Of a stretch of 37,758 nt of DNA, positions 609-37,199 are shown in pieces (the stretch's first letter is position 1; every line of letters starts with the position of its first letter). A model generated the notes under the pieces. It was not told the DNA's origin, did no database searches, and saw nothing but the letters and a program-made list of their open reading frames with translations. The translations under genes were made by a program, and so were the position numbers. Origin of the DNA: Hydrogenophaga sp. (GTDB lineage Bacteria > Pseudomonadota > Gammaproteobacteria > Burkholderiales > Burkholderiaceae_C); NCBI GenBank assembly GCA_025458915.1, contig JALORL010000008.1, positions 1-37,758 of the forward strand, in the 5' to 3' direction.

Positions 609-2090
<1,482 letters not shown>

Positions 2091-2147
2091 GAGCGCCGAT
2101 TATCGGTGACCCGTTTTCGCTGAACCGGGTGGCAGCAGGGGCCCATG

Positions 2148-2172
2148 AAAAAGGCCCGCCAGAGCGGGCCTT
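2148..2172 (-). terminator. Rho-independent terminator after rplY
   Basis: A perfect 9-bp stem (AAGGCCCGC / GCGGGCCTT) with a 4-base loop is followed, on the minus strand, by five Ts. It lies 29 bases past the rplY stop and before pth, so it should end the prs-rplY transcript. Confidence 0.85.
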
Positions 2173-2200
2173 CAAGGCAGGAGCAGGGCCCCTGGAAGAA

Positions 2201-2824
2201 TCACTTCTTCTTCTTGCCTTTCTTGTCGTCGGCGGGAGCGGCCACCGGCGCTGCCACGACTTCTTCCACCGGCTCCACCACCGTGGCCACCGTCATGTTG
2301 GTGCGGCCATGGGTGACCAGCTTGATGCCCTTGGCGAGCTTGATGTCACCGGTGTGGATGGTGCTGCCTTTGGTGACTTCGCTCAGATCCACCACGATGT
2401 GCTCGGGCAATTGCGTTGCCAGGCACTCGATCTCGATGTCGGTCATCACGTGGTTGATCAGGCACTTGTCCACCTTGACGGCGGGCGAATTCTCGGCGCC
2501 TTCAAAGTGCAGGGGAACCTTCTTGCGCAGACGGGTTTTTTCGTCCACACGCTGGAAGTCCACGTGCAGCACCTGGGGCTTGTAGGGGTGGTACTGCACA
2601 TCGCGCAGCAGAACCTTGTGCACCGCTCCGCCGATTTCCATGTCAAGGATGGCCGAGTGGAAGGCTTCCTTCTTCAGGGCGTGCCACAGGGCGTTGTGAT
2701 CGAGTTCGATCGTGGTGGCGGGGGTATTGCCACCAAAAACGATACCGGGCGCGCGACCGGTGTTGCGCAGACGGCGGCTCGCACCCGTACCCTGCTTGGC
2801 GCGCTCAAAAGCGACGAATTGCAT
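2201..2824 (-). CDS. rplY: 50S ribosomal protein L25 (long, Ctc-type)
   Basis: L25 binds 5S rRNA in the large ribosomal subunit. This 207-residue form has the N-terminal 5S-binding domain ([20 protein letters not shown], then the GxxPGIVFGG turn), the C-terminal beta domain of the general-stress protein Ctc, and a Lys-rich tail. The start is the ATG at 2824, which has a strong AGGAG ribosome-binding site six bases upstream. The frame upstream of this ATG is open and is the coding frame of prs: no stop codon separates the two genes. Free L25 is probably made by internal initiation, and a Prs-L25 fusion by ribosomes arriving from prs. A good terminator follows the gene. Confidence 0.93.
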
Positions 2825-3817
2825 GACTGACTCCTGTTGAGGGGTTCCGCGACCAGAACGCCCGGCAAACAAACTCATCACCGACTCGCCCGAAGCAATG
2901 CGCGCAATGGTCTCGGCCATCAGCGGTGCCACGGAAAGCTGGCGGATCTTGGCGCAGGCCTGGGCGGCCTGCGACAGGGGAATGGTGTTGGTCACAACCA
3001 CTTCGTCCAGTGCGCTGCCCTTGGCAATGCGCTCGATGGCCGGACCGGAGAAGATCGGGTGCGTGCAATAGGCATACACATTCTTGGCACCGCGTTCCTT
3101 GAGCACCTCGGCTGCCTTCACCAGCGTTCCGGCGGTGTCGATCATGTCGTCCATGATCACGCAGTTGCGGCCGTCAATGTCACCGATGACATGCATCACT
3201 TCCGACACGTTGGCCTTCGGTCGGCGTTTGTCGATGATCGCCATGTCGCAGTTCAGCTGCTTGGCCAGCGCGCGGGCGCGCACCACGCCGCCCACATCGG
3301 GCGACACCACCAGCAGGTCGGGGTAATTCTTCTGGCGCAGGTCACCCAGCAGCACCGGTGATGCATAAATGTTGTCCACGGGAATGTCGAAGAAACCCTG
3401 GATTTGGTCGGCGTGCAGGTCCATGGTGAGCACCCGGTTCACGCCCACGGCTTGCAGCATGTTGGCCACCACCTTGGCCGAAATGGGCACCCTGCTCGAA
3501 CGCGGCCGGCGGTCCTGGCGGGCATAGCCAAAATAGGGAATCACTGCGGAAATGCTCACCGCCGACGCGCGCTTGAGGGCGTCAACCATGATGATGAGCT
3601 CCATCAGGTTTTCGTTGGTGGGGGCGCAGGTCGACTGGATGACGAACACGTGGCGCGCCCGAACGTTCTGCGTGATCTCGACGGTGACTTCACCGTCCGA
3701 GAACCGCCCCACGTTGGCTGCGCCCAGCTGGGTGCCCAGATGCTGGGCAATTTCTGCTGCAAGAACCGGGTTGGCGTTCCCGGTGAAGATCATGAAATCC
3801 GGGGGCTGAACTTGCAT
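2201..3817 (-). CDS. prs: Ribose-phosphate pyrophosphokinase Prs, reading without a stop into L25
   Basis: Prs makes PRPP from ribose 5-phosphate and ATP for purine, pyrimidine, His, Trp and NAD synthesis. The Prs part (about 318 residues, 3817 to 2864) is complete. It has [10 protein letters not shown], the flexible-loop region [18 protein letters not shown], the catalytic [11 protein letters not shown], and the PRPP loop [13 protein letters not shown]. It ends at the usual C-terminus, SVMSLFA. The frame does not stop there: 13 linker residues ([13 protein letters not shown]) lead straight into L25, and the first stop is at 2201. The start at 3817 ([17 protein letters not shown]) matches the family. 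The frame also stays open upstream into tRNA-Gln, which is not coding. The fusion is read directly from the bases; whether it is real in the cell is open. Confidence 0.9.
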
Positions 3818-3909
3818 GGTGTTCCCAGCGTGTTGAACGGTTCCGGCGCCAGGGCCTTCACCGTCGCCTGTTGGGCAGGCGGCTCGCTTGCGTGTGTGCA
3901 TGAATAGAG

Positions 3910-3986
3910 TGGCAGGGGAGGAAGGACTCGAACCCTCGCATGCCGGAATCAAAATCCGGTGCCTTTACCAACTTGGCGACTCCCCT
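3910..3986 (-). tRNA. tRNA-Gln (anticodon TTG)
   Basis: On the minus strand a full cloverleaf can be drawn. The acceptor stem is AGGGGAG/CTCCCCT, the anticodon arm is CCGGA-TTTTGAT-TCCGG with anticodon TTG, the T-arm contains TTCGAGT, the discriminator base is G, and the CCA end is encoded. It reads CAA/CAG glutamine codons. It lies between ispE and prs on the same strand, an arrangement common in betaproteobacteria, and is probably cut out of a longer transcript. Confidence 0.95.
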
Positions 3987-4074
3987 ACACAGGCCCTCAG
4001 ACTGGACTTCGTCCGCTGCTGGCCCCGTAGCCTGTTGACCGTGTGATCACCACCCGACCGACAAGCCCAGTATT

Positions 4075-4986
4075 CTAATCCGGACACCAGTCGTGCAGCG
4101 GGTGCACGTTCAAGATGCTGCAGATTTTTGACGTCCACCCGGCCGGCATTTCAGGCAGCGTCATGCCAGGCTCGATGAGCGCAAACACCGCTGATCCCGA
4201 ACCTGTCATGCGACCGTGCAAACCATGACTGGACAACCAGTCAAGACACGCACCGATGCCAGGGCACAGGGCTTTCGCCACAGGCTGAAGGTCGTTGTGA
4301 CCCCACTCCAGCACTTTCCGGAGGTCGAGTCTGTTTGTACCTTCTTGCCCATTTGCAGCAAAGCCTTGGAGTATAGCAGTTTCCGTGTCTCTTTTTAGTT
4401 CAGATGAGCGGAATATGTCCTGGGTGGATGCCCCATCAAGCGGCTTGATCACAACAAAGCGTGCCGGCTCCAGTTCGATGGGCGTGAGTGTTTCGCCGAT
4501 TCCTTCCACCCACGCGGTGCGCCCCCCCACAAAAAAGGGCACATCTGCCCCCAAAGGAAGGGCGATTTCGGAGAGCTCTTTGCGGTTCAGACCCAGTCCC
4601 CACAGCCGGTTCAGGGTCAGCAGGCAGGTGGCTGCGTCCGAGGAGCCGCCTCCCATGCCCGCCTCTGCAGGCAGGTGTTTTTCGAGCCGGATGTGGACGC
4701 CCTGCGTGCAACCCGTGGCGCGTTGCAATGCCCTTGCCGCACGGACGCAGAGGTCTTCGGCGGGAAGGCTGTGGCCATTGAGGTCCTCCCGGCTGATGCC
4801 ACCGTCTTTCCGCCATTGGAAGGTCAGCCTGTCGCACCAATCCACCAGAACGAACAGGGATTGCAGGAGGTGGTAGCCGTCCGGACGCCGCCCGGTGACA
4901 TGGAGAAACAAGTTGAGTTTGGCTGGCGCAGGGACATCCAGCAGCTCCTGCAGCGGTTGTGGCGAATGAACGGGTGCGGGTGTCAT
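4075..4986 (-). CDS. ispE: 4-diphosphocytidyl-2-C-methyl-D-erythritol kinase IspE
   Basis: IspE phosphorylates CDP-methylerythritol in the MEP pathway to isoprenoid precursors. Visible GHMP-kinase features are PAPAKLNLFLHVTGRRPDGYH at residues 19-39 (catalytic Lys and substrate contacts), the ATP-binding loop PAEAGMGGGSSDAAT at 106-120, GADVPFF with the catalytic Asp region, and the C-terminal MTGSGSAVFAL glycine motif. At 303 residues it is slightly longer than usual because of a short N-terminal lead. Its ATG overlaps the lolB stop by four bases (ATGA), so the two are probably translationally coupled. tRNA-Gln and prs follow. The TAG stop is at 4075-4077. Confidence 0.95.
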   Translation of the reverse strand: MTPAPVHSPQPLQELLDVPAPAKLNLFLHVTGRRPDGYHLLQSLFVLVDWCDRLTFQWRKDGGISREDLNGHSLPAEDLCVRAARALQRATGCTQGVHIRLEKHLPAEAGMGGGSSDAATCLLTLNRLWGLGLNRKELSEIALPLGADVPFFVGGRTAWVEGIGETLTPIELEPARFVVIKPLDGASTQDIFRSSELKRDTETAILQGFAANGQEGTNRLDLRKVLEWGHNDLQPVAKALCPGIGACLDWLSSHGLHGRMTGSGSAVFALIEPGMTLPEMPAGWTSKICSILNVHPLHDWCPD

Positions 4987-5489
4987 GGTTCCACGATCAG
5001 ACGCAGCTCCGCGCTGGGCAATGGGGTACTTCGCCGCGCGAGAATCCGCCCTTCGCCGCGTCGGCTCAGGTCGGCCTGCCAGCCATCAGCCACTGCTGCC
5101 TCCCCCCGCAACCAGGCGAACAGGGCGGACACGGGTAGTGCCGCTCCTCCCAGCTCGGTTGCGAGTTCGTCCAGCGAGCCTTTGCGCACCACCTGATTGC
5201 CCTGGCGCCACTCGGCACTGTCCCCATCCCAGGTGGCGCTGGCCACGGCCGTTCCCAGCGGTGAAGTCAGCACGAAATACCCCTGCCTGGGCGATCCTTG
5301 CAGGCTGAAGCCGGCGGAGACCAGTTGAACCGGTTCCGTATCCACCCGCAATGACAGGCGGCCGCTCCACCCGGGTTCACCATCTGGAAGGGTGGTCTGG
5401 GGCACGGCACAGGCTGCAAGCACCAGTGGCAGTGCCAGCGATATGCCCCTGCGCGTCAGGCCCCGTGCGGGTGAATGCCACGCCTTCAT
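4983..5489 (-). CDS. lolB: Outer-membrane lipoprotein receptor LolB
   Basis: LolB accepts lipoproteins from LolA and inserts them into the outer membrane; it is itself a lipoprotein. The start at 5489 gives a basic N-terminus, a hydrophobic stretch and the lipobox LAAC, with the lipidated Cys at residue 27. The mature part has the LolB strand pattern W-x-G-R-L-S-L-R-V, GYFVLTSPLGTAVASATW and LPVSALFAWLRG. The 168 residues are a little short for the family. The frame is open further upstream, but that stretch overlaps the TPR gene and adds no signal. The gene overlaps both neighbours by four bases, joining the TPR lipoprotein, lolB and ispE into one unit. Sequence conservation in LolB is low, so part of the call rests on position. 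Confidence 0.88.
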   Translation of the reverse strand: MKAWHSPARGLTRRGISLALPLVLAACAVPQTTLPDGEPGWSGRLSLRVDTEPVQLVSAGFSLQGSPRQGYFVLTSPLGTAVASATWDGDSAEWRQGNQVVRKGSLDELATELGGAALPVSALFAWLRGEAAVADGWQADLSRRGEGRILARRSTPLPSAELRLIVEP

Positions 5490-7324
5490 GGTCTGACCTG
5501 GAACCGCTCCAGCGTGCTGCGCAAGGTCTCGTTGTCGTTGGCGAGCAGCATCCCCTCCCGCCAGATCTTCAGGGCCTGGTCCCTCTGACCCAGCACCCAC
5601 AGCACCTCGCCGAGGTGCGCCGCAATTTCGGCATCGGGCCGCTTGCTGTAGGCCGCCTGCAGGATGGTCAGGGCCCTTGCTGTGTTGCCCATGCGGTACT
5701 CCACCCAGCCCAGACTGTCCTGGATGTATGCATCTCCCGGAGCCAGTTCCACCGCCTTTTCAATGAGCGCCTTGGCTTCGCCCAGCCGCTCGTTGCGGTC
5801 AGCCAGCGAGTAGCCCAGAGCGTTGTAGGCATGGTGGAAGTCGGGACGGGCCGCGATCAGCTGGCGCAGCAACGCCTCCATTTCAGCAGGTTTTCCCGCC
5901 TTCTCGGCCATCATGGCCTGGTCGTACAGAAGATCGGTCTCCGCAGGAAAGCGCCTGACTGCCTCGGAATACACCTGGTAGGCGGCTTCCCAGGACTTGA
6001 AGTCCCGGAGCAGTTGTGCCTCCGCCACCAGCTTGAGACGCGCATCGTCCGGCCGCCGTTCCGGCTGGTTTCGCAGCAGGGCACGGGCCTGTTCCATCTG
6101 CCCTTGTCGGGCCAGCAACGAAGCCCGGCGCATCTGTGCGGCCATGATGTCGTCGGCATTCTCGATGCGGTCCAGCCAGGCGTTTGCGGCCTGGAAGTCG
6201 CCTTGCTTCTCGGAGACCTGGGCCATCAGCAGGTAGGCCTGGGTCAATCCGCGCTGCGCGCGCTCGTCACCGGAATCTCGGGCGAGCCGCATGTGGTTCT
6301 GCAGCGAGGTGGTGGCTGCTTCCAGCTTGTTGTCCTGCACTTCAACGGACGCCCTCAACAACCAGGCGTCCGCCAATTCGGGCTGGCTGCTGGTGAGGTT
6401 GTCCAGTTGGCGCATCGCGTCGGCGGTCCGCTGGAGGTCCACCAGCACCCTGGCGTACGCCAAGGCCACCTGGGGGGTCAGCGGACTGTCTGGTCTGGCG
6501 GTTTGCAGCTGCTGGCGAACGATGTCTTCGGCCCCTGCCGTGTTGCGCTCCACGAGTTCAAGCGCCAGCAGCGCCGGGAATGGCGATGCTGGCTCCGCAC
6601 GGTGGCCCTGCCGGGCCGATGCGAGGGCCTCGCCGTTTCGATCCAGGGCCAGCTCCATGCGCCCGAGCGAGGTCCACGCCGCCGGGGCGTGTCGGCCCTC
6701 GAGGTAGGGTGCAAGGGCCACTTTCACCACCTGCAATGCCAGAGCCTTGTCTGATGCTCGGGAAAATGTTTGCGGAATGGCATTGATCGCGTCGTCGCGT
6801 TCGTTTGCCGACACGCTGCCCAGCAGTGCTGCGAGTGCCGGGCCCGTCTCGGACACCCGGTTGAGTGCCAGCAGGATCTGCAGCGTGAACCGGTCAGCGT
6901 CGGCGGAGCCCGGAAGGTCCGCAGACCATGCCCTGGCAGCGCTCAGCGCGGCCTCTCCCGAGCGTGCCCGCAGGGCAATGTCCACCGCGCGCCGGTACAA
7001 CTGGGCGTCGCGCTGCTTCCGTGCTGCATCAAAAATGAGCGAGTAGGCTGCTCCCTGGTCATCAGACAGCGCGTTAAGTTCCCCGATCAGCAGCTGGTAG
7101 AACAGGGGCGCATCAAGCCCGGAGTTCACGACCGCTGGCGGTTTTTGCTCAGAAGCCGTGGCGGTTTGTTCGCGCTGCGGCGTTTGCGCGCAGGCCACCA
7201 GGGTGGAGCTCGCAGCGAGCAGGGCAAGCAGTGCTGTACGCAACTTCGAAGGCGAAGCGCGGTGGCCAGCAGCGTCCGCAAAGGGCTCGTGAGCGGGGGG
7301 CTGGGCGCTATACAGGGTATTCAT
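5486..7324 (-). CDS. Large TPR-repeat lipoprotein
   Basis: This is a 612-residue exported protein made mainly of tetratricopeptide-like helix pairs. The N-terminus has about 27 cytoplasmic residues, a hydrophobic segment and the lipobox LVAC, with the lipidated Cys at 45. The clearest TPR units are in the C-terminal third, for example the [21 protein letters not shown] and [20 protein letters not shown] regions. The start at 7324 was chosen because it gives the signal; the frame extends upstream only as an antisense shadow of mutM. It overlaps lolB by four bases, so it is co-expressed with the lipoprotein-sorting factor that would probably place it in the outer membrane. Its partners are unknown; TPR scaffolds usually organise protein complexes. 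Confidence 0.85.
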
Positions 7325-7417
7325 CGGTTCATGATAATTGAAGCCCTCCGGCAGGCCGGTCGTGTGATCCCAATACCTTGCTGGCGTTCCCTCCTGTTTC
7401 CCGCATTGCGTTCTTCC

Positions 7418-8233
7418 ATGCCCGAGTTGCCCGAAGTTGAAGTGACCCGCCGCAGCTTTGCCGATCGCATCGCTGGCGCCCGCGTACTGGATGTGTTCAT
7501 GGGCAAGCCGTTGCGTTGGCCGCTGGGCTGCGCGCCTGGGGAGTTGCAAGGCCGTGTGGTGCATGCGGTCGGTCGCCGGGGCAAATACCTGATCCTCCAA
7601 TTCGATACAGGCCTGTTGCTGGTGCACCTGGGCATGTCCGGGAGCCTGCAATTCGGCCTTTCGCTGCCAAAACGCGGGCCGCACGATCACTTTGAACTGC
7701 GCACTTCCCTTGGCAGCTTGCGCCTGCACGATCCGCGCCGGTTCGGGGCGGTGGTGTTTGCAGACAACCTGCAGGCTGCCTCCGCCCGCAAGTTGCTGGA
7801 CGGGTTGGGACTTGAGCCCCTGGAGTCGGGTTTCGAGCCCGTTCGGTTTCACCAGGCGTTGCAATCCCGCCGGGCGCCCATCAAGCAGGTTCTGCTGGCC
7901 GGTGACATCGTGGTGGGCGTTGGCAACATCTATGCTTCCGAGGCACTCTTCAAGGCCGGGATCCGTCCCACGGTGCGCGCCGATCGCATCAGCCAGCCCA
8001 GGGCAACGCGCCTTCACGGCGCAATCGTGTCGGTTCTGAACCGGGCGCTGGCTCTGGGGGGAAGCTCCTTGCGGGACTTCACCAGCGCAGAAGGACAGTC
8101 GGGCTACTTCCAGCTCGATGCAATGGTGTATGGCCGCGCCGGTCTTCCATGCCGGGTCTGTGGTACGGTCGTCAGGACCATCCGGCAGGGGCAGCGTTCC
8201 ACCTTTTTCTGCCCTCAGTGCCAGAAGCGCTGA
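7418..8233 (+). CDS. mutM: Formamidopyrimidine-DNA glycosylase MutM (Fpg)
   Basis: MutM excises 8-oxoguanine and formamidopyrimidines and cuts the abasic site. The protein begins MPELPEVEV; after Met removal P2 is the Schiff-base nucleophile and E3 the acid. Other landmarks are the [10 protein letters not shown] lysine segment, LVHLGMSG, and the H2TH region [16 protein letters not shown]-terminal zinc finger has the pattern C-x2-C-x16-C-x2-C and ends in QCQKR. Length (271 aa) is standard. The frame is open upstream to 6770, but that part is antisense to the TPR gene. It is divergent from the TPR gene with 93 bases between, and is followed by the dynamin-like gene and mutY, its partner in the 8-oxoguanine (GO) repair system. 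Confidence 0.96.
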
Positions 8234-8283
8234 AGTTGCCGGAGTCCGTCGGAAAACCCGATATCCAGCCAGAACGCCGGTGC

Positions 8284-8289
8284 TATATT
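8284..8289 (+). promoter_or_regulatory. candidate -10 element before the dynamin-like gene
   Basis: TATATT lies 23 bases before the ATG at 8313, in the short gap after mutM. No good -35 is seen, so this is only a candidate for a promoter driving the dynamin-like gene and mutY apart from mutM. Confidence 0.35.
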
Positions 8290-8312
8290 GCCAACCGTAC
8301 TGAAAACTGTTT

Positions 8313-10256
8313 ATGAGTTTCAACCAGGAATTTGATCAGCATGGGGCATGGCGCAGGCAGTTTGCCCTTCGCCTCAAGCTGCTGTCCGAGTGGCTGACCG
8401 ATCACGACCTGATGGAGCCCGGCGTGCGGGAGCGGCTGGACCAGTTGCACGAGCAGGTTCGCAACGACAAGATCATGGTCGCGTTCGTTGCCGAATTCTC
8501 CCGTGGCAAATCCGAGCTGATCAATGCCGTCTTCTTCGCAGGTTATGGGCGCCGGATCATGCCGGCGAGCGCGGGGCGGACCACCATGTGCCCCACCGAG
8601 CTGGGTTACGAGGCCGACATTCCGCCCTGCCTGCGCTTGCTGCCCATTGAAACCCGCCTCCAGCCCAAGTCGCTGCTGGATTGGCGCGGTGCCCCCGACA
8701 AATGGGAGCGCATCGACCTTGATGTCAACGATCCGCAGCAGTTGGCACGTGCCATCCAGAAGGTGGCCGAGGTTCGCCGCGTCACCAAGGCCGAGGCCGC
8801 TGCACTGGGTTTCTGGAACGATGAGCTGCCCGACGACAATCCACTGCCCAGTCCGGACGGAATGATCGAAGTGCCGAAATGGCGGCACGCCCTGATCAAC
8901 ATGGCGCACCCCTTGCTCAAGCAGGGTCTGGTCATTCTCGACACGCCTGGGCTCAACGCGATCGGCGCTGAGCCCGAACTGACGGTCAGCCTGCTGCCCC
9001 AGGCGCACGCGGTCGTGTTCATCCTGGCGGCGGACACCGGCGTCACGAAATCCGACCTCAGCATCTGGCGCCAGCACCTCTCGGGGTTGGGGGAGGGGCA
9101 GGAGTCCCGGCTTGTCGTGCTCAACAAGATTGACACCATGTGGGATGCGCTGAGCTCCCCCGAGCAGGTTCAGCTGCAAATCGCCGCCCAACGAACCGAC
9201 GCTGCCGAAGTTCTGGGGTTGTCTCCGGATCATGTACTTGCAGTGTCGGCTCAGAAAGGGTTGCTGGCCAAGGTCAACCGCGACAAGAAGCTGCTCAAGG
9301 CCAGCAAGCTCATGGAGCTCGAGAAGGCGCTGGGCGTCGACCTGCTGGGGCAGCGTCGCCAAATCCTGCGCACGTCGGTGGCTGCGGGTATCCAGTCGCT
9401 GCGCCAGGAAACCGGGCGCCTCGTTCATACCCGGGCCCGCGACCTCGTCGAGCAGATCCAGGAGCTGGAGGGCCTTCGTGGCAAGAACGACGGCGTGATC
9501 AAGCAGATGCGTCTGCGCATCGAGCAGGAGCAGGCGGAGTTCGATGCCAGCGGCGCCAAGATCCAGGCCGTTCGCTCGGTGCACCTGCGCCTGCTCAAGG
9601 ACCTGTTCGCCCTGTTGGGGCACAGCTATCTCAAACGTGAAGTGTCCGAGCTCTCCAAGGCATTGAAGCAGCCCGGTGTGAAGCTGGGCGTGCGCCGCGC
9701 CTACGGCAAGACCTTCGAGCGCCTGCGCGAGGGCCTGGCCCAGACGGAACGCCTGGCCACCGAGATCCAGTCCATGCTGGAAGGCAGTTTCAAGGGGCTG
9801 AATGCCGAATATGGGTTCTCGCTGCAGGCGCCGCCCCAGCCGAAGCTGGCGCGCTTTTACAAGGATCTGGAGCTGATCGAGAAAAGCCACATCCAGTACC
9901 TCAGTCTGGGCAACGCCCTCCGGCTGGCCCAGCCCGAGTTTGCTGAGCGGCTGGCTCGGGCTCTCATGAGCCGCCTGCGCGTGGTGTTTGAGACTGCCGT
10001 CAACGAGGTGGAGCTCTGGAACAAATCCGCTGCTGCACAACTGGACGCCCAGTTGCGGGAGCGCCGCCGCAATTTCAGTCGCCGCATTGAAGCGGTTTCC
10101 CGCATCCAGCAGGCGGCCGGTGGTTTGAACGAGCGCATCCGGGAATTGCAGGCCATCCAGAGCGAATTGAATCTGGTGGACACCAAGCTGGGCGAGTTGA
10201 CCGAACATCTCCTGGCGGTGCAGCCCGGCGAAATCCGCGAAGCAGTTGCCGCATGA
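8313..10256 (+). CDS. Dynamin-family large GTPase
   Basis: This 647-residue protein has a dynamin-type GTPase domain in its first half and a long, charged, probably coiled-coil second half. G1 is VAEFSRGKSELIN (residues 59-71), where the first Gly of the usual GxxxxGK(S/T) is Ala. SAGRTTMCPTEL is the likely G2 region, LVILDTPGLNA is G3 and VVLNKID is G4. No membrane-spanning segment is evident. Bacterial dynamin-like proteins typically act on membranes, but some work elsewhere, and the substrate here is unknown. The stop overlaps the mutY start by four bases and mutM lies just upstream, so expression is probably linked to repair of oxidised guanine. There is no clear Shine-Dalgarno site before the ATG. 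Confidence 0.9.
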   Translation: MSFNQEFDQHGAWRRQFALRLKLLSEWLTDHDLMEPGVRERLDQLHEQVRNDKIMVAFVAEFSRGKSELINAVFFAGYGRRIMPASAGRTTMCPTELGYEADIPPCLRLLPIETRLQPKSLLDWRGAPDKWERIDLDVNDPQQLARAIQKVAEVRRVTKAEAAALGFWNDELPDDNPLPSPDGMIEVPKWRHALINMAHPLLKQGLVILDTPGLNAIGAEPELTVSLLPQAHAVVFILAADTGVTKSDLSIWRQHLSGLGEGQESRLVVLNKIDTMWDALSSPEQVQLQIAAQRTDAAEVLGLSPDHVLAVSAQKGLLAKVNRDKKLLKASKLMELEKALGVDLLGQRRQILRTSVAAGIQSLRQETGRLVHTRARDLVEQIQELEGLRGKNDGVIKQMRLRIEQEQAEFDASGAKIQAVRSVHLRLLKDLFALLGHSYLKREVSELSKALKQPGVKLGVRRAYGKTFERLREGLAQTERLATEIQSMLEGSFKGLNAEYGFSLQAPPQPKLARFYKDLELIEKSHIQYLSLGNALRLAQPEFAERLARALMSRLRVVFETAVNEVELWNKSAAAQLDAQLRERRRNFSRRIEAVSRIQQAAGGLNERIRELQAIQSELNLVDTKLGELTEHLLAVQPGEIREAVAA

Positions 10257-11341
10257 GTCGAGCTGCCCCGGCAGCCGAACCTCTGCCCTCCGGTTTTGCG
10301 CAGGCGCTCATCCGCTGGCAACGGGCTCACGGTCGAAGCGGTCTGCCCTGGCAGGGCACCCGCGACCCTTATGTGGTCTGGCTGTCGGAGATCATGTTGC
10401 AGCAGACCCAGGTCAGCGCCGTGGTCCCGTACTTTCACCGTTTCCTGCAGCGCTTCCCCGACGTGCATGCGCTCGCGGCTGCGTCAGAGGACGAGGTGTT
10501 GTCGCTCTGGAGCGGTTTGGGCTACTACAGCCGTGCGCGCAACCTGCAGCGCTGTGCCCAGCTGGTGGTGCAGGAGCATGCGGGTGAGTTTCCGCGCAGT
10601 GTGGAGGGCCTGGCCAAGTTGCCGGGTATCGGGCAGACCACGGCGGCAGCGATTGCAGCGTTCTGTTTTGGTGAAAAGGTATCCATCCTCGACGGCAATG
10701 TGCGGCGTGTGCTGACCCGGTTGATGGCCTTCGGAGGCGACCAGTCCAACGTTGCGGCCCAGCGGGCGCTCTGGAATCTGGCCCAGAAACTGGTTCCTGC
10801 AGATCCGCTGGGCGACGACATGACCGCCTACACACAGGGCTTGATGGACCTGGGCGCCACAGTGTGTACCCGCACCCGACCCAAATGCCTGCATTGCCCG
10901 GTCTGTGAAATGTGCGAGGCGCGCAAATCGGGTACTCAGGCGCAGTTTCCCGTGAAAACAGGCAGAACACTCAAACGCCACGAAAGCTGGTGGCTTCTGC
11001 TGGTGCGGCGCCAGCATCCTTCCGGGCAGGCACAGTGGTGGCTCGAGCGCCGTTCTGCCAACGGAATATGGGCTGGGCTGTACTGTCCGCCGGTGTATGG
11101 CAGCGAGACTGCATTGAACAGCACGCTGGAGCGCTCACTTCTGGATCAGCAACTGACGGCTTGTGAGGCCATCACCCACCAGCTGACACACAGGGAGCTG
11201 CGGCTGCAACCCATGCTGCTCGACCTGCCTGCCACCTCGACGCTGTCCAGCTTTCAAGAAAACGGACGCTGGGCCCTGGCATCGGAGTTGGGCGACCTGG
11301 GTTTGCCAGCGCCAATACGCCCCTTGCTTGCGGGACTCTGA
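10253..11341 (+). CDS. mutY: A/G-specific adenine glycosylase MutY
   Basis: MutY removes adenine mispaired with 8-oxoguanine. Its parts are the catalytic Glu46 in WLSEIMLQQTQV, the helix-hairpin-helix LPGIGQTTAAAI followed by the catalytic Asp147 in ILDGNVRRVLTR, and the [4Fe-4S] cluster ligands C205-x6-C212-x2-C215-x5-C221. A C-terminal NUDIX-like domain, which recognises 8-oxoG, starts near residue 240 (WWLLLVRR). The 362-residue length is normal. The ATG overlaps the stop of the dynamin-like gene by four bases, implying translational coupling. It converges with rapZ, with only 12 bases between the stops. Confidence 0.96.
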   Translation: MSRAAPAAEPLPSGFAQALIRWQRAHGRSGLPWQGTRDPYVVWLSEIMLQQTQVSAVVPYFHRFLQRFPDVHALAAASEDEVLSLWSGLGYYSRARNLQRCAQLVVQEHAGEFPRSVEGLAKLPGIGQTTAAAIAAFCFGEKVSILDGNVRRVLTRLMAFGGDQSNVAAQRALWNLAQKLVPADPLGDDMTAYTQGLMDLGATVCTRTRPKCLHCPVCEMCEARKSGTQAQFPVKTGRTLKRHESWWLLLVRRQHPSGQAQWWLERRSANGIWAGLYCPPVYGSETALNSTLERSLLDQQLTACEAITHQLTHRELRLQPMLLDLPATSTLSSFQENGRWALASELGDLGLPAPIRPLLAGL

Positions 11342-11353
11342 AGCTCCCGCGGG

Positions 11354-12283
11354 TCAACGCTCCGGAGACGTTTTTGCTGCTGGCCAGCCATCCATCTCCC
11401 GGTGCCGCAGACGCGTGGTCCAGGCCGACGAAAATGCGTTGGCCAGTTGCTCCACCATATACACCGATCGGTGTTGTCCACCCGTACAACCGATGGCCAC
11501 GGTGACATAGCTGCGGTGATCGCTGAGCATGTGCGGCAGCCAGTGCCCGAGGAATCTTGCAATCTGGTCCTGCATCTCCATGACCTCCGGCATAGCCCGC
11601 AGGAAGGCTGCAACAGGCTCATCCCTGCCCGTGAGCGGCTTCAGCGCCGGCTCGTAGTGCGGGTTGGGAAGCATGCGCACGTCGAACACAAAATCGGCGT
11701 CCATGGGAATGCCGCGCTTGAAAGCGAATGATTCGAAGACCAACGTGAGCGGTGCGGGGGCACTGCCCAGCAGGGCCTTGATATGGCTTCGGAGCTGTGC
11801 AGGCCGGATCATGCTGGTGTCCAGCACCAAAGCGGCATCTCGCAGCTCTTCGAGCAGATTCCTCTCCTCCTCGATGGCGTCGGTCAATGCCCTGTGTTGA
11901 TCGTCTGCGGTGGGCAGGGACAGCGGATGCAGCCGCCGGGTCTCGGAGAAGCGCCGCACCAGAATGTCGGTCGTGGCGTCGAGGAAGAGGGTGGTGAGCT
12001 GGACGCGCCGCGCCTGCCGGCGTGTCAGTTGCTTCAACCGCTCGGGTAGCCCCGGCAAGGATGCCGCGCTGCGCACGTCCATGGCCACAGCGACGCGGTG
12101 TGCCCGATGGGTCTGATCCAGATCCACAAAAGCGTCCAGCAGATCCGGGGGCAGGTTGTCGACGCAAAAGTAGCCCAGATCCTCCAGCGCGGTCAGCGCC
12201 ACGGATTTGCCAGACCCTGACATGCCCGTGATCAATACCAGCTCGATGGGGCCAGGGTCAGATGCATGCGGGGTGGGTTTCAT
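11354..12283 (-). CDS. rapZ: RNase adapter / nucleotide-binding protein RapZ
   Basis: In enterobacteria RapZ binds the small RNA GlmZ and hands it to RNase E, controlling glucosamine-6-phosphate synthase. Outside that group it is a conserved P-loop protein of less certain role. Seen here are the Walker A loop GMSGSGKS (residues 20-27), [10 protein letters not shown], the DVRSAASL segment, VSFGFK-like [21 protein letters not shown], and the C-terminal signature [12 protein letters not shown]. The 309 residues include short extra stretches at both ends. It lies 12 bases after recN on the same strand and converges with mutY. None of the usual PTS-Ntr neighbours (hprK, ptsN, hpf) is adjacent in this window. 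Confidence 0.92.
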
Positions 12284-12295
12284 GGCGGCTCAGTC

Positions 12296-13939
12296 TCAGA
12301 CAGCCAACAGTTCGCGGGCGTGGGCCATGGAGACCTCCGAGCGGGCGCTGCCGCCCAGCATGCGGGCCAGCTCTTCCACCCGCGCCTCCGCAGCGATCTG
12401 GGTGACCGCGCTCAACGTCTGCGGTCCCACTTGACGCTTGTTCACGAGCAGATGGTGACCTGCGCAGGCAGCCACCTGCGGCAGGTGTGTGACGGCCAGA
12501 ACCTGGCGGTCCATGCCCAGTTGCCGCAGCAGTTGGCCCACGGTGTGCGCCACTGCCCCACCAATGCCGGAATCTACTTCGTCGAAGATGAGTGTGGGGG
12601 CCGTACCCAGGCGGCTCGTGACCACCGACAGAGCCAGCGCAATCCGCGAAAGCTCTCCACCGGACGCGATCTTTCCCACCGGCTTGGGGGTTGTACCGGC
12701 ATGTCCTGCCACAAGAAAGTCCACCTGTTCCCATCCCTTGGGCTGGGGCTCGTCCAGCCGCTTCAGTGCCACCTCAAACACACCGCCCTGCATGCCCAGG
12801 GTCTGCATGATGTCGGTCACGGCGGAAGCCAGCTTCGGGGCGGCCGCCTCTCGCTGCCGGGTCAGGCCGGCCAGCGCTTTCTCAAAGGTTTTCCAGGCCT
12901 GCCGTTCTGCCTGTTCGAGTGCATCGAGGTCCAGTGCGTTGCCCACCTGAGCGAGTTCCTGCCTGCACTGGATCAACAGGTCGGCCAGTTCTTCCGGCGC
13001 GCGGTGGTAGCGGCGTGCCAACGACATCCATAGGGCCATGCGATGGTCCAGCACTTCAAGTTGTGCGGGATCCAGCTCGGTGTGGCGGGTGAATTGGTGC
13101 AGGTTGTGCAGGGTGTCCTGGACCTGCGCCAGCGCCGATTCGAGAACCTCCACATCGGTGGCAAAGGCCGGTTCGATGTGCGCCTGCGCACGCAGCGCGA
13201 CCACCGCGCGGTGCAGCAGGGCGGTGGCGCTCGCCTGATCATCCTCCAGGGCATGAATGGCAGTCTGTGCTGCGTCCAGGAGGCCATGGGCGTTCGCCAG
13301 TCTCGCGTGCTGCGCGTTGAGTTCTTCCCACTCGCCCGGCAGCGGTGAGAGCTTTTCCAGTTCACCCAGCTGCCAGGACAGCCGGTCGCTTTCCTGTTGC
13401 AAGGTCTGTTTGCGCTCGGTGGCTGTCATCAGGGCCGAACGCCGGCTCCGCCAGTTGGCGCAGGCCGCTTCCGCCGCGTGGGTATCGATGCCGGCGAACG
13501 CATCCAGCAGGTCACGCACGGCGTTGGGCCGTGTCAGGCTCTGCCAGGCGTGCTGACCATGGATGTCCACCAGACATTCGGCCATCGTCTTGAGCTGGGC
13601 CACCGTGGCCGGACTTCCATTGATCCATGCCCGACTTCTGCCTTCCTGGTCCACTGTCCGGCGCAGCAGCAATCCATCGTCCGTGGAAAACCCCTGGTCT
13701 TCCAGCCAGGGGACGAGCGATGCGGGCGTGTCGAATTCGGCGGCAATGTCGCAGCGCTGGGTCCCTTCGCGCACCACCCCGCTGTCAGCCCGTCCGCCCA
13801 GCGCCAGTTGCAGGGCATCGATCAGGATGGATTTGCCAGCGCCGGTTTCTCCAGTGAGAACACTGAACCCAGCCTGAAGGTCGAGATCCAGCGATTCAAC
13901 GATCACGAAATCGCGCAGGACGATGCGTCGGAGGCTCAT
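12296..13939 (-). CDS. recN: DNA repair protein RecN
   Basis: RecN is an SMC-like ATPase that helps repair double-strand breaks. The Walker A GETGAGKS is at residues 30-37. A long coiled-coil region rich in Gln, Ala, Leu and Glu occupies the middle, interrupted near residues 155-190. The ABC signature SGGELSRIALAL and the Walker B TLIFDEVDSGIGG are in the C-terminal third. The length of 547 is standard. It sits between nadK (59 bases upstream) and rapZ, a common order for nadK-recN. No LexA-type SOS box (CTGT-N8-ACAG) is evident in the short upstream gap, although recN is an SOS gene in enterobacteria. Confidence 0.96.
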   Translation of the reverse strand: MSLRRIVLRDFVIVESLDLDLQAGFSVLTGETGAGKSILIDALQLALGGRADSGVVREGTQRCDIAAEFDTPASLVPWLEDQGFSTDDGLLLRRTVDQEGRSRAWINGSPATVAQLKTMAECLVDIHGQHAWQSLTRPNAVRDLLDAFAGIDTHAAEAACANWRSRRSALMTATERKQTLQQESDRLSWQLGELEKLSPLPGEWEELNAQHARLANAHGLLDAAQTAIHALEDDQASATALLHRAVVALRAQAHIEPAFATDVEVLESALAQVQDTLHNLHQFTRHTELDPAQLEVLDHRMALWMSLARRYHRAPEELADLLIQCRQELAQVGNALDLDALEQAERQAWKTFEKALAGLTRQREAAAPKLASAVTDIMQTLGMQGGVFEVALKRLDEPQPKGWEQVDFLVAGHAGTTPKPVGKIASGGELSRIALALSVVTSRLGTAPTLIFDEVDSGIGGAVAHTVGQLLRQLGMDRQVLAVTHLPQVAACAGHHLLVNKRQVGPQTLSAVTQIAAEARVEELARMLGGSARSEVSMAHARELLAV

Positions 13940-13998
13940 GGAACAAGGTAAGGATGGGACCGTGAACGAAACACCAGCCGCGTATTCTCACCGCTAAA

Positions 13999-14916
13999 TC
14001 AGGCCCCTTCGTTCCAGTGGAGCTTCTTTCTCAGGGTGTCGAAATAGTTCCACCCCGCAGGGTGCAACAGGCGCAATGCACGTGCAGCCCGGCGCACGAC
14101 GATTCGGTCACCGTGCAGCAGGCTGGTGAACGATTGCATGTCGAAGTTGGCGCTGGCGTCCTTGCCCGAGACGATTTCCACCGCAATCTCGCTGGCGCAG
14201 GGCAGCACCACCGGTCGGTTGGACAGGGTGTGGGGGGCGATCGGCACCATCACCCAGCCGTCGATCCCAGGGTGGAGCAAAGGCCCGCCCGCCGACAGTG
14301 CGTAGGCAGTCGACCCGGTCGGCGACGCGATGATGAGGCCATCTGCGCGCTGGTTGGCCACGAAGTGCCCGTCCACCTCCACCCGCAGTTCGATCATGCT
14401 GGCGGCGCCGCCCCGGTTCACAACGACGTCGTTGAGCGCGGTGGCCTCGAATACGCAGCGGCCATCCCGCCAGACGGTGGCAGACATGAGTGCCCGGGCA
14501 TCTTCCTCGTAGTTGCCCCGCAGGATGGGTTGCAGTTTTTCCCTGTAGCCATCAAAAGCAATATCGGTGATGAAGCCAAGCCGCCCCTGGTTGATACCCA
14601 CCAGGGGCACGCCGTAGCGGGCCAACTGCCGACCGATGCCCAACATCGTGCCGTCACCTCCCACCACCAAGGCGAGATCACACCGTTCGCCCATGACCGG
14701 CACCGTCAACGCAGGGTACTGGAGAAGACCGGTGTTGAGCGCCGTCTCGCGCTCCAGCGAGACATCGCAACCCTCGTCGTGCAGGAAATGGGCGATTTCA
14801 TCGACGGCATTCTTTGATCCGACGGCCTGGTACTTGCCAACAATGACCACATGCTGGAATTTCAGCGGGCCAACGGCGGGCACCAGATCGGGAATTCGGG
14901 TGCGGGGCTGGTTCAT
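13999..14916 (-). CDS. nadK: NAD kinase
   Basis: NadK phosphorylates NAD to NADP in the cytosol. Diagnostic parts are [11 protein letters not shown] (residues 86-96, the GGDGT motif), [19 protein letters not shown], and the substrate segment [25 protein letters not shown]. The start at 14916 ([10 protein letters not shown]) fits the family. An earlier in-frame ATG at 14973 would add a Cys-rich stretch with no family similarity. Length is 305. It is transcribed away from hrcA, with about 95 bases between the two starts, and toward recN. The nadK/hrcA divergence is frequent in beta- and gammaproteobacteria. Confidence 0.95.
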
Positions 14917-14997
14917 GCGCAAATTACAGCACAGGCATCCGCATTGTCTGCCCGTTGAATCACCAATGGTCATTCACTGGAAATCCCGGTGTTTCCT

Positions 14998-15003
14998 TAG
15001 AAT
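14998..15003 (+). promoter_or_regulatory. candidate -10 element immediately before hrcA
   Basis: TAGAAT ends seven bases before the preferred hrcA ATG at 15011. A TTCACT at 14973-14978 is a weak, widely spaced -35. Transcription from here would start at or next to the ATG, giving a leaderless message; no Shine-Dalgarno site is seen. Confidence 0.35.
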
Positions 15004-15010
15004 GCAGTGC

Positions 15011-16030
15011 ATGCTGGATGACCGCGCTAAGCTGCTGCTCAAGGCCTTGGTCGAGCGATATATCGCCGACGGACAACCCGTGGGCTCCCGAACGCTTGCC
15101 AAGGCTGCCGGTCTGGAACTCTCGCCCGCAACCATCCGCAATGTGATGAGTGACCTGGAAGAGCTGGGTCTCATCGTCAGCCCACACACGTCGGCGGGGC
15201 GGATACCCACTGCCAGAGGCTACCGTCTGTTCGTGGACACGATGCTGACGGTGCGCCGCGAAAATCTTGCCGATGTACCCGACATGGCCGCTTCCAGCAT
15301 GGCCGGCGCCCAGCCGCAGCGGGTGATCAGCCACGCCGCCAACATGTTGTCGAACCTTTCCCATTTTGTGGGGGTTGTGATGGCGCCGCGGCGTGCGTCC
15401 GTGTTCCGCCACATTGAATTCCTGAGCCTGTCGGAGCGCCGCGTTCTGGTGATCATCGTGTCACCCGACGGTGACGTTCAGAACCGCATCATTCACACCC
15501 AGGTGGATTTCACCCAGACACAACTGCTGGAGGCGGCCAATTTCCTCAACGTCCACTACGCCGGCCTGGCCATGGAGGCCGTGCGCGAGCGGCTGCGCAC
15601 CGAGGTGGATGCCCTGCGGGGCGAGATCGCCGACCTCATGAAGGCAGCCGTGGCAATCGGCTCGGAGGGGGAGGGAGCACGCGAGGAGGTTGTGGTGGCG
15701 GGCGAACGCAACCTCCTGTCCGTCAGCGAGTTCTCCAGCGACATGGGCCAGCTGCGGCGGTTGTTCGACCTGTTCGAGCAGAAGACCCAGTTGATTCGTC
15801 TGCTGGACGTTTCTTCGCAGGCCGAAGGCGTGCGCATCTACATCGGAGGGGAGAGTCAGGTCGTCCCATACGAGGATCTGTCCGTTGTCACCGCTCCCTA
15901 TGAGGTGGATGGACAGGTGGTGGGAACGCTCGGTGTCATCGGCCCCCAGCGCATGCCTTATGACCGCATGATCCAGATCGTCGATGTCACGGCGAAGCTC
16001 GTGACCAACGCCCTCAGCCACGGGAAGTAG
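15011..16030 (+). CDS. hrcA: Heat-inducible transcription repressor HrcA
   Basis: HrcA represses chaperone genes (groESL, often dnaK or grpE) by binding CIRCE palindromes; GroEL restores its activity. The N-terminal winged helix is clear ([21 protein letters not shown], then [18 protein letters not shown] and [20 protein letters not shown]). The GAF-like and dimer parts follow, ending in [20 protein letters not shown] chose the ATG at 15011 (MLDDRAKLL, 339 aa). An in-frame ATG at 15002 would add three residues. The frame is open far upstream only as a shadow of nadK. No CIRCE sequence is visible at this locus, so autoregulation through CIRCE is not supported here. Confidence 0.95.
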
Positions 16031-16048
16031 TCAGTCGGCCAGCGGGCC

Positions 16049-16054
16049 TACAAT
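16049..16054 (+). promoter_or_regulatory. candidate -10 element of the CAU-anticodon tRNA gene
   Basis: TACAAT lies 11 bases before the tRNA and is followed by a GC-rich discriminator (CGCGGC), as expected for a growth-rate-controlled stable-RNA promoter. The -35 is weak. Confidence 0.45.
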
Positions 16055-16065
16055 CGCGGCTCCCA

Positions 16066-16142
16066 GGGCCGTTAGCTCAGTTGGTTAGAGCAGAGGACTC
16101 ATAATCCTTTGGTCGAAGGTTCAAGTCCTTCACGGCCTACCA
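16066..16142 (+). tRNA. tRNA with CAT anticodon, probably tRNA-Ile2 (lysidine type), otherwise elongator tRNA-Met
   Basis: The cloverleaf is complete: acceptor GGGCCGT/ACGGCCT (first pair G-U), D-arm GCTC/GAGC, anticodon arm GAGGA-CTCATAA-TCCTT, variable loop TGGTC, T-arm GAAGG-TTCAAGT-CCTTC, discriminator A, and an encoded CCA. The anticodon CAT fits either elongator Met or the isoleucine tRNA whose C34 is changed to lysidine by TilS. The C4-G69 and C5-G68 pairs and the TGGTC loop match what is known of Ile2 (E. coli elongator Met has U4-A69 and A5-U68). Ile2 is therefore favoured. An initiator is unlikely, since it would have a mismatched first pair of C-A type and three G-C pairs in the anticodon stem. 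Confidence 0.9.
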
Positions 16143-16154
16143 AAAAAAGCATGC

Positions 16155-16160
16155 TACAAT
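16155..16160 (+). promoter_or_regulatory. candidate -10 element of tRNA-Arg
   Basis: A second TACAAT lies 10 bases before tRNA-Arg, mirroring the one before the preceding tRNA. It may give tRNA-Arg its own promoter. The -35 is poor. Confidence 0.4.
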
Positions 16161-16170
16161 GCATGGCTTA

Positions 16171-16247
16171 GCGGCTGTAGCTCAGCTGGATAGAGTACTT
16201 GGCTACGAACCAAGGGGTCGTGGGTTCGATTCCTGCCAGCCGCACCA
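16171..16247 (+). tRNA. tRNA-Arg (anticodon ACG)
   Basis: The acceptor stem is GCGGCTG/CAGCCGC, the D-arm GCTC/GAGT, the anticodon loop CTACGAA with anticodon ACG, the T-loop TTCGATT, the discriminator A, and the CCA end is encoded. A34 is expected to be deaminated to inosine by TadA so that CGU, CGC and CGA are read. It follows the other tRNA by 28 bases and is closed by a strong terminator. Confidence 0.96.
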
Positions 16248-16253
16248 ACATGA

Positions 16254-16290
16254 AAGCCCGCAGCCACAAGCTGCGGGCTTCTTCATTTTT
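16254..16290 (+). terminator. Rho-independent terminator after tRNA-Arg
   Basis: A perfect 11-bp stem (AAGCCCGCAGC / GCTGCGGGCTT) with a CACAA loop is followed by CTTCATTTTT. It lies seven bases past the tRNA-Arg CCA and 38 bases before greB, separating the tRNA unit from greB. Confidence 0.9.
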
Positions 16291-16328
16291 GCGTCTTTCG
16301 CAGAGGGCGCACCGTCCAGTCTGACGAC

Positions 16329-16898
16329 ATGAGCAAAGCCTTCACCCGCGAATCCGACGGCGACGAAGAAGAAGCTTCTCCGGACGGAACGTCTGCCCCG
16401 CAGGGCAAGAACTACATCACCCGCATCGGCTACGACAGGCTGCGTAGCGAACTGCTCGGGCTGATCGACGACGAACGCCCGCGCGTGGTGGAAATCGTTC
16501 ACTGGGCCGCCAGCAACGGCGATCGATCCGAAAACGGGGACTACCTCTACGGAAAAAAACGCCTGCGGGAAATCGACCGCCGCATCCGTTTTCTGACGCG
16601 ACGTCTGGAAATGGCCGAGGTGGTGGATCCGTCGGTGCACCATGGCGGCGAACATGTCTATTTCGGCGCCACCGTCACTTACGCGAACAGGGCTGGTGAG
16701 GAGACCACGGTCACCATCCTCGGAATCGACGAGGCCGACAGCAGCAAAGGCCAGATCAGCTGGGTCTCCCCGGTCGCCAAAGCCTTGCTGCGCTGCCGGG
16801 TCGGCGACGAGGTGCAGATCATGCTGCCCGACGGATCGCAGATGCTGGAAGTGCTCGAGGTGTCCTACCCGGCACCCACCCCGGAGTCGGGTCATTGA
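16329..16898 (+). CDS. greB: Transcription elongation factor GreB
   Basis: GreB enters the RNA polymerase secondary channel and stimulates cleavage of backtracked RNA. Seen are an N-terminal acidic lead of about 25 residues, then the coiled-coil domain (NYITRIGYDRLRSELLGLIDDERP). At its tip is the acidic NGDRSENGDYLYGKKRL segment carrying the catalytic Asp/Glu. The C-terminal FKBP-like domain (VYFGATVTY to ISWVSPVAKALL) follows. Length is 189, longer than usual only by the acidic N-terminus. GreB rather than GreA is favoured by the YLYGKKRLREIDRRIRFLTRRL stretch. It converges with spoT, with 23 bases between the stops. Confidence 0.95.
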   Translation: MSKAFTRESDGDEEEASPDGTSAPQGKNYITRIGYDRLRSELLGLIDDERPRVVEIVHWAASNGDRSENGDYLYGKKRLREIDRRIRFLTRRLEMAEVVDPSVHHGGEHVYFGATVTYANRAGEETTVTILGIDEADSSKGQISWVSPVAKALLRCRVGDEVQIMLPDGSQMLEVLEVSYPAPTPESGH

Positions 16899-16921
16899 AC
16901 CTGCCGGGGCAGGATGGGCGA

Positions 16922-19180: not shown

Positions 19181-19265
19181 GCCGCTACTTTAGCCGGAGA
19201 CGGCCAGGGGCGTCAGTTTGCGCCGACTTGCTGCCAGGGCCTGCAGGGTTGCCACGTCCAGAAAC

Positions 19266-36440: not shown

Positions 36441-37199
<759 letters not shown>

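Follow-up and report, generated by a model that had tools for sequence, protein, structure and literature searches.

In the DNA examined here, a stretch of 37,758 nucleotides from Hydrogenophaga sp. (hereafter, the window), the genes for ribose-phosphate pyrophosphokinase (prs) and for the ribosomal protein bL25 (rplY) are joined in a single reading frame. This arrangement raises the questions of how the stop codon of prs was lost, whether the loss belongs to the organism or to its assembly, and what role is played by the DNA that now links the two genes.

One open frame through prs and rplY

Both genes lie on the minus strand, a detail left out of the sequence-only reading. Translation of positions 3817 to 2201 confirms the uninterrupted frame that had been claimed from the sequence alone; it is a single open reading frame of 538 codons with no internal stop codon. 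The relevant features are as follows, in the direction of transcription.

3910-3986, minus strand: tRNA-Gln upstream of prs, given for context (annotation of the window).
2864-3817, minus strand: prs core, residues 1-318 of the fused frame (translation; family and structure matches; comparison of tails).
2836-2867, minus strand: GGUCGC hairpin, rplY leader and putative bL25 operator, with the apical GGTCGC at 2854-2849 (model match, covariation, conservation).
2862-2863, minus strand: putative deletion junction, at which relatives are longer by 69 (G018), 83 (G066) or 82 (L069) bases.
2825-2863, minus strand: 13-codon linker, a former 5' leader of rplY (translation; alignment to relatives).
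2831-2835, minus strand: Shine-Dalgarno sequence AGGAG of rplY, 6 nt 5' of the ATG (sequence).
2201-2824, minus strand: rplY, encoding a two-domain bL25 of 207 amino acids, with its own ATG at 2824-2822 (translation; family scans).

Family scans identified full-length Prs domains in the first half of the protein (PRK01259, 508.3 bits; curated cut-off 297). The bL25 half, which begins at Met332 of the fused frame and whose stop codon ends at 2201, scored 84.7 bits against PF01386 (cut-off 23.6) and 80.4 bits against PF14693 (cut-off 27), and NF004130 was also above its cut-off. Alignments with the nearest Prs chains of known structure span about residues 5-320 and end at 317-320 (the best, 3dah, over residues 8-318), and the Prs proteins of many relatives terminate two residues past SLF. 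We therefore regard the Prs core as complete; comparison of tails shows that it lacks the DQDNLF-type tail and the stop codon seen in genus relatives. Alignment to relatives also supports the proposal that the 13 linker codons were once intergenic DNA, in which a good AGGAG and an ATG for L25 are indeed kept.

Loss of the stop codon: deletion or artefact

The relatives compared carry 69-83 additional nucleotides at one point, which corresponds to window position 2863|2862. Judged from these relatives, what the window lacks is the final six codons of prs with their stop codon and, usually, a terminator-like hairpin. Genus DNA alignments, as listed, stop and restart within two bases of this point (query 1038/1039) where both flanks are on one contig. 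Elsewhere in the genus, all 29 loci that show both genes have a prs ending with ADQDNLF or a close variant, followed by a stop codon, and in 24 of these 29 the absent stretch includes a hairpin with following T residues according to a lenient test; a stricter terminator scan of one locus (L004) did not flag the hairpin. In some relatives, the flanks of the stretch share CCG or CCGA, about 3-4 bases at most, which would suit a microhomology deletion and proves nothing.

The window contig is otherwise broadly collinear with the genomes G018 (window 1-25735) and G066 (window 681-19203), and the prs-rplY junction is the sole loss of at least 12 nt that is common to both comparisons. Each comparison alone has one other spot at which the window is shorter. 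Relative to G066, the window has 36 nt instead of 117 nt at 10257-10294, and relative to G018 it is 64 nt shorter at 16143|16144, which falls between genes for tRNA-Met and tRNA-Arg. Because the window shows no such loss there in comparison with G066, the 64-nt difference is perhaps an insertion in G018.

We lean toward the view, from these alignments, that the fusion is a true allele created by a real and recent deletion. The alternative that survives best, which is possible but in our judgment the less probable, is an artefact of assembly or consensus calling, in which the genome itself would still have its stop codon and spacer, the reads having dropped out or been joined wrongly across the terminator-like hairpin. 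The fusion is known from one fragmented, MAG-like assembly (3.19 Mb, 355 contigs, 81% complete) and was found in no other locus read, and the absent stretch is the very site of the terminator-like hairpin in most genus relatives, all of which speaks for such an error. However, the few bases shared by the flanks appear too short for an overlap join, the join contains no N, and the contig exhibits no second loss of at least 12 nt common to both comparisons.

The sequence-only reading had proposed that the spacer be compared in sister genomes. The nearest relatives compared here are at most 89% identical to the window over the prs part. A stop codon separates prs from rplY in all 118 relative loci in which both genes were read. 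This count excludes a locus without prs (L003) and a placeholder (L120); the duplicate pairs within it number at least three (L032/L006, L079/L028 and L114/L104), and two further loci have an identical spacer (L116/L117). Many of the loci were retrieved with the fused protein as the query, which biases the set toward relatives with both genes in one frame. Among the 30 class-wide loci of best L25 score, the fusion is absent from all 28 that have prs in view, and a Prs-L25 fusion in more than one lineage was thus not found in either set (0/118 and 0/28).

A search of the genus detected L25 in 63 of 67 genomes, with an open frame of 587 codons in the window, 525 codons in G054 and 157-263 codons in the other 61. 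The frame in G054 was rejected as a second fusion: prs there ends with DQDNLF-TAA, and the L25 frame is open through prs only out of phase. Long L25 frames in seven genomes of the family (G358, G217, G082, G372, G314, G379 and G436) and two of the class (G646 and G521) were checked and are not fusions; this check was made among the matches listed, with G606, G667, G787 and G775 outside it.

Two peculiarities were observed among these genomes. In locus L113 (G217:C1:505200-508000), homology to prs is gone after residue 298 and gives way to an unrelated tail, with a frameshift near the end; because the stretch contains N, this is probably a sequence error. Also, G314 has two similar rplY loci on short contigs (G314:C101 and G314:C141), perhaps reflecting a strain mixture.

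A conserved hairpin upstream of rplY

Although the linker was correctly read as former intergenic DNA, that reading overlooked a conserved RNA hairpin within it, a leader of rplY with a tip of the type found in E. coli. The hairpin has an apical GGUCGC and a covarying stem. The window representative scores 27.7 bits (E 6.9e-6) against our hairpin model, R1, and folds with most of the stem. Among the publications listed by literature searches, none has a title that concerns an RNA element of the prs-rplY spacer.

GGTCGC is present in the spacer of the window and of all 115 relatives that remain once three duplicates are dropped, versus 1024 of 23000 spacers subjected to mononucleotide shuffling. 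By a rule that permits no bulges and halts at two consecutive mismatches, 80 of the 115 relatives have a stem of at least seven pairs, and in most of the rest 3-4 pairs precede a double mismatch. The distance between the hairpin and rplY varies from about 18 to 100 nt.

Covariation was assessed by using 98 distinct 32-nt pieces from the relatives, ungapped and with the window left out, in comparison with 500 shuffles. Three measures stood out, each equaled by 0/500 shuffles, namely the covariation score (0.593 versus 0.192 shuffled, with no slid register above 0.300), the proportion of paired cells (77.1% versus 54.3%) and the number of two-sided changes (287 versus 109.7), all of which are inflated by kinship of the sequences, as the shuffles ignore relatedness. 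Two other measures were not clearly distinct from the shuffles: pairs with two-sided change (333/500) and further pair types (28/500). The score was 0.652 for a hand-picked subset of 65 pieces, and R1 was built from this subset; the pieces omitted from it included three that fit poorly (L055, L088 and L105).

The hairpin is widespread in the class. GGTCGC occurs in 29 of the 30 leaders of the best-scoring class-wide rplY loci (L162 has none), 24 of which have at least 7 of 10 pairs. In an order whose L25 frames are short in 28 of 30 fetched loci, all 30 leaders contain it (shuffled, 30/6000). A phylum-wide sample yielded GGTCGC in 14/14 loci of the same class and 1/15 loci of other classes, and a further twelve same-class leaders, picked by hand, yielded ten (L250 and L257 are without it). 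When the class was searched with R1, 77 of 274 genomes had matches; among the best 30 loci, 23, including the window, have bL25 downstream, and the remaining seven are taken for chance matches. A second R1 match in the window (37066-37097, plus strand, 14.5 bits, E 0.049) is probably also due to chance.

In L147, E. coli and L130 (whose contig begins shortly upstream), the hairpin precedes rplY without prs upstream; it therefore goes with rplY, and the idea that it is part of prs was rejected. We regard it as unlikely that the hairpin is instead a processing, mRNA-stability or transcription element with no role as a bL25 operator. Such a role would accommodate the strong Shine-Dalgarno sequence of the window and the variable distance to rplY, and binding of bL25 to the hairpin is our supposition. 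However, the hairpin also accompanies rplY where prs is not upstream, is mostly confined to one class (14/14 and 10/12 within it, 1/15 outside) and has the same six apical bases as the stretch that the L25 leader family matches in E. coli. We conclude that the hairpin probably controls rplY as a leader resembling the L25 operator.

Two observations concern other elements near these genes. In other classes of the phylum, the region upstream of rplY contains another element, CCCTGGAGG, at 9 of 15 loci (L219, L220, L222, L223, L227, L233, L234, L238 and L243), compared with 1 of 3000 shuffles. In most cases this element folds into a hairpin, no match to Rfam 15 was found in the seven CCCTGGAGG loci scanned, and it may represent a second, unrelated L25 leader. 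In addition, a match to the RtT RNA family lies just upstream of prs in L093 (2821-2956).

Proposed origin, and comparison with known L25 leaders

The account that we favor, with a probability of roughly 0.55, is that a recent deletion of about 70-83 nt fused prs to rplY but spared a leader resembling a bL25 operator, such that both fused and free bL25 are made. The deletion would have taken the six last prs codons, the stop codon and, to judge from most genus relatives, the terminator-like hairpin. It would have spared the leader hairpin of rplY with its GGUCGC, the Shine-Dalgarno sequence and the ATG. Ribosomes that complete Prs would then read on through the hairpin to make the Prs-bL25 fusion. 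Free L25 is probably still produced, by internal initiation at the retained Shine-Dalgarno sequence and ATG. An extended form of L25 reported in E. coli (PMC13245402) provides a precedent for initiation 5' of the usual start. We infer that the allele is true and that its hairpin responds to bL25 as in E. coli; if the hairpin is such an operator, ribosomes passing through it would relieve or weaken repression. Because bL25 is described as non-essential in E. coli in a review (PMC10931766), even a clumsy fusion may be tolerated. If real, the allele is a natural test of translating through a ribosomal protein operator.

A more far-reaching version, which we consider improbable, holds that the fusion is real and that a working bL25 operator has become coding, with its bases serving as linker codons, so that Prs output and bL25 regulate each other through one RNA, and that the GGUCGC operator is ancestral to the class, bacteria with long bL25 included. 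Bound bL25 would then stall or obstruct the ribosomes that complete prs, and these ribosomes would in turn open the operator. PRPP synthetase output would thereby be tied to a 5S rRNA-binding protein, and the published restriction to short bL25 would be contradicted.

That the fusion is old and has been selected because it keeps both activities together is very improbable. It is in frame and both domains are intact, but neither the 118 relative loci nor the 28 class-wide loci that show both genes contain it. Moreover, when deletions that remove the stop codon but spare the downstream hairpin are simulated, 25% of them (mean for 29 relatives; range, 0 to 33%) leave prs and rplY in one open frame. 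The open frame is therefore weak evidence of selection and not statistically remarkable, and selection is unnecessary to explain the fusion. Hardly tenable is the claim of the sequence-only reading that only a substitution explains the loss of the stop codon: it agrees with the open frame, but it weighed single-base changes alone and supposed an otherwise unchanged spacer, whereas 69-83 nt are absent with the stop codon inside, and prs lacks its DQDNLF-type tail.

Among known systems, the window resembles ordinary Prs in its full core, with 3dah as the best solved match, and differs from the usual form, in which a DQDNLF-type tail is followed by a stop codon, in that the protein continues into bL25. 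Its rplY product has the PF01386 and PF14693 domains of two-domain bL25 proteins of the CTC/TL5 type, but this copy can be joined N-terminally to Prs by read-on translation.

The rplY operator of E. coli was reportedly described by Aseev et al. 2015. The E. coli leader consists of CCTGTTGCTG-GGTCGC-CTGTAGCAGG, then a GAGA Shine-Dalgarno sequence, and the match of the L25-Gammaproteobacteria leader family (RF03131) in E. coli is exactly the GGTCGC hairpin (L182, 4471-4496). A review (PMC10931766) describes the operator as an irregular hairpin located 5' of the ribosome-binding site, states that control requires the weak GAGA and is lost with a classic GGAGG, and confines such operator features to species with short bL25. 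Other literature includes a mention by Eckert and Weinberg 2020 (PMC7247131) of an L25 leader in Enterobacteria and work on the "rplY leader" that concerns E. coli (PMC13245402).

The window hairpin is likewise directly upstream of rplY (2836-2867, with the ATG at 2824) and has the apical GGUCGC in common with the E. coli match. The window and its relatives differ from the family in a mostly U-G pair beside the loop, in covarying stems, and in having two-domain bL25, with prs upstream in nearly all loci read. Whatever the status of the allele, the comparison showed that almost every leader sampled from the class has, ahead of rplY, a GGUCGC hairpin whose stem covaries. RF03131 matches E. coli and three of five other leaders of short bL25, with L248 and L195 unmatched despite their GGTCGC. 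It gave no hit to the window, whether at the gathering threshold or with E relaxed to 10, nor to 15 loci scanned at gathering or ten loci scanned with E up to 5; conversely, R1 has no match in E. coli. Common descent is thus argued by the shared tip and place, not by model score. Because the window has a strong AGGAG in place of the weak GAGA, the E. coli mechanism, in which the protein competes with the 30S subunit at a weak Shine-Dalgarno sequence, may not carry over. A hairpin with this GGUCGC tip extends to lineages with long bL25 across the class, beta lineages included, which suggests that autogenous control of L25 is old in the class and no speciality of bacteria with short bL25.
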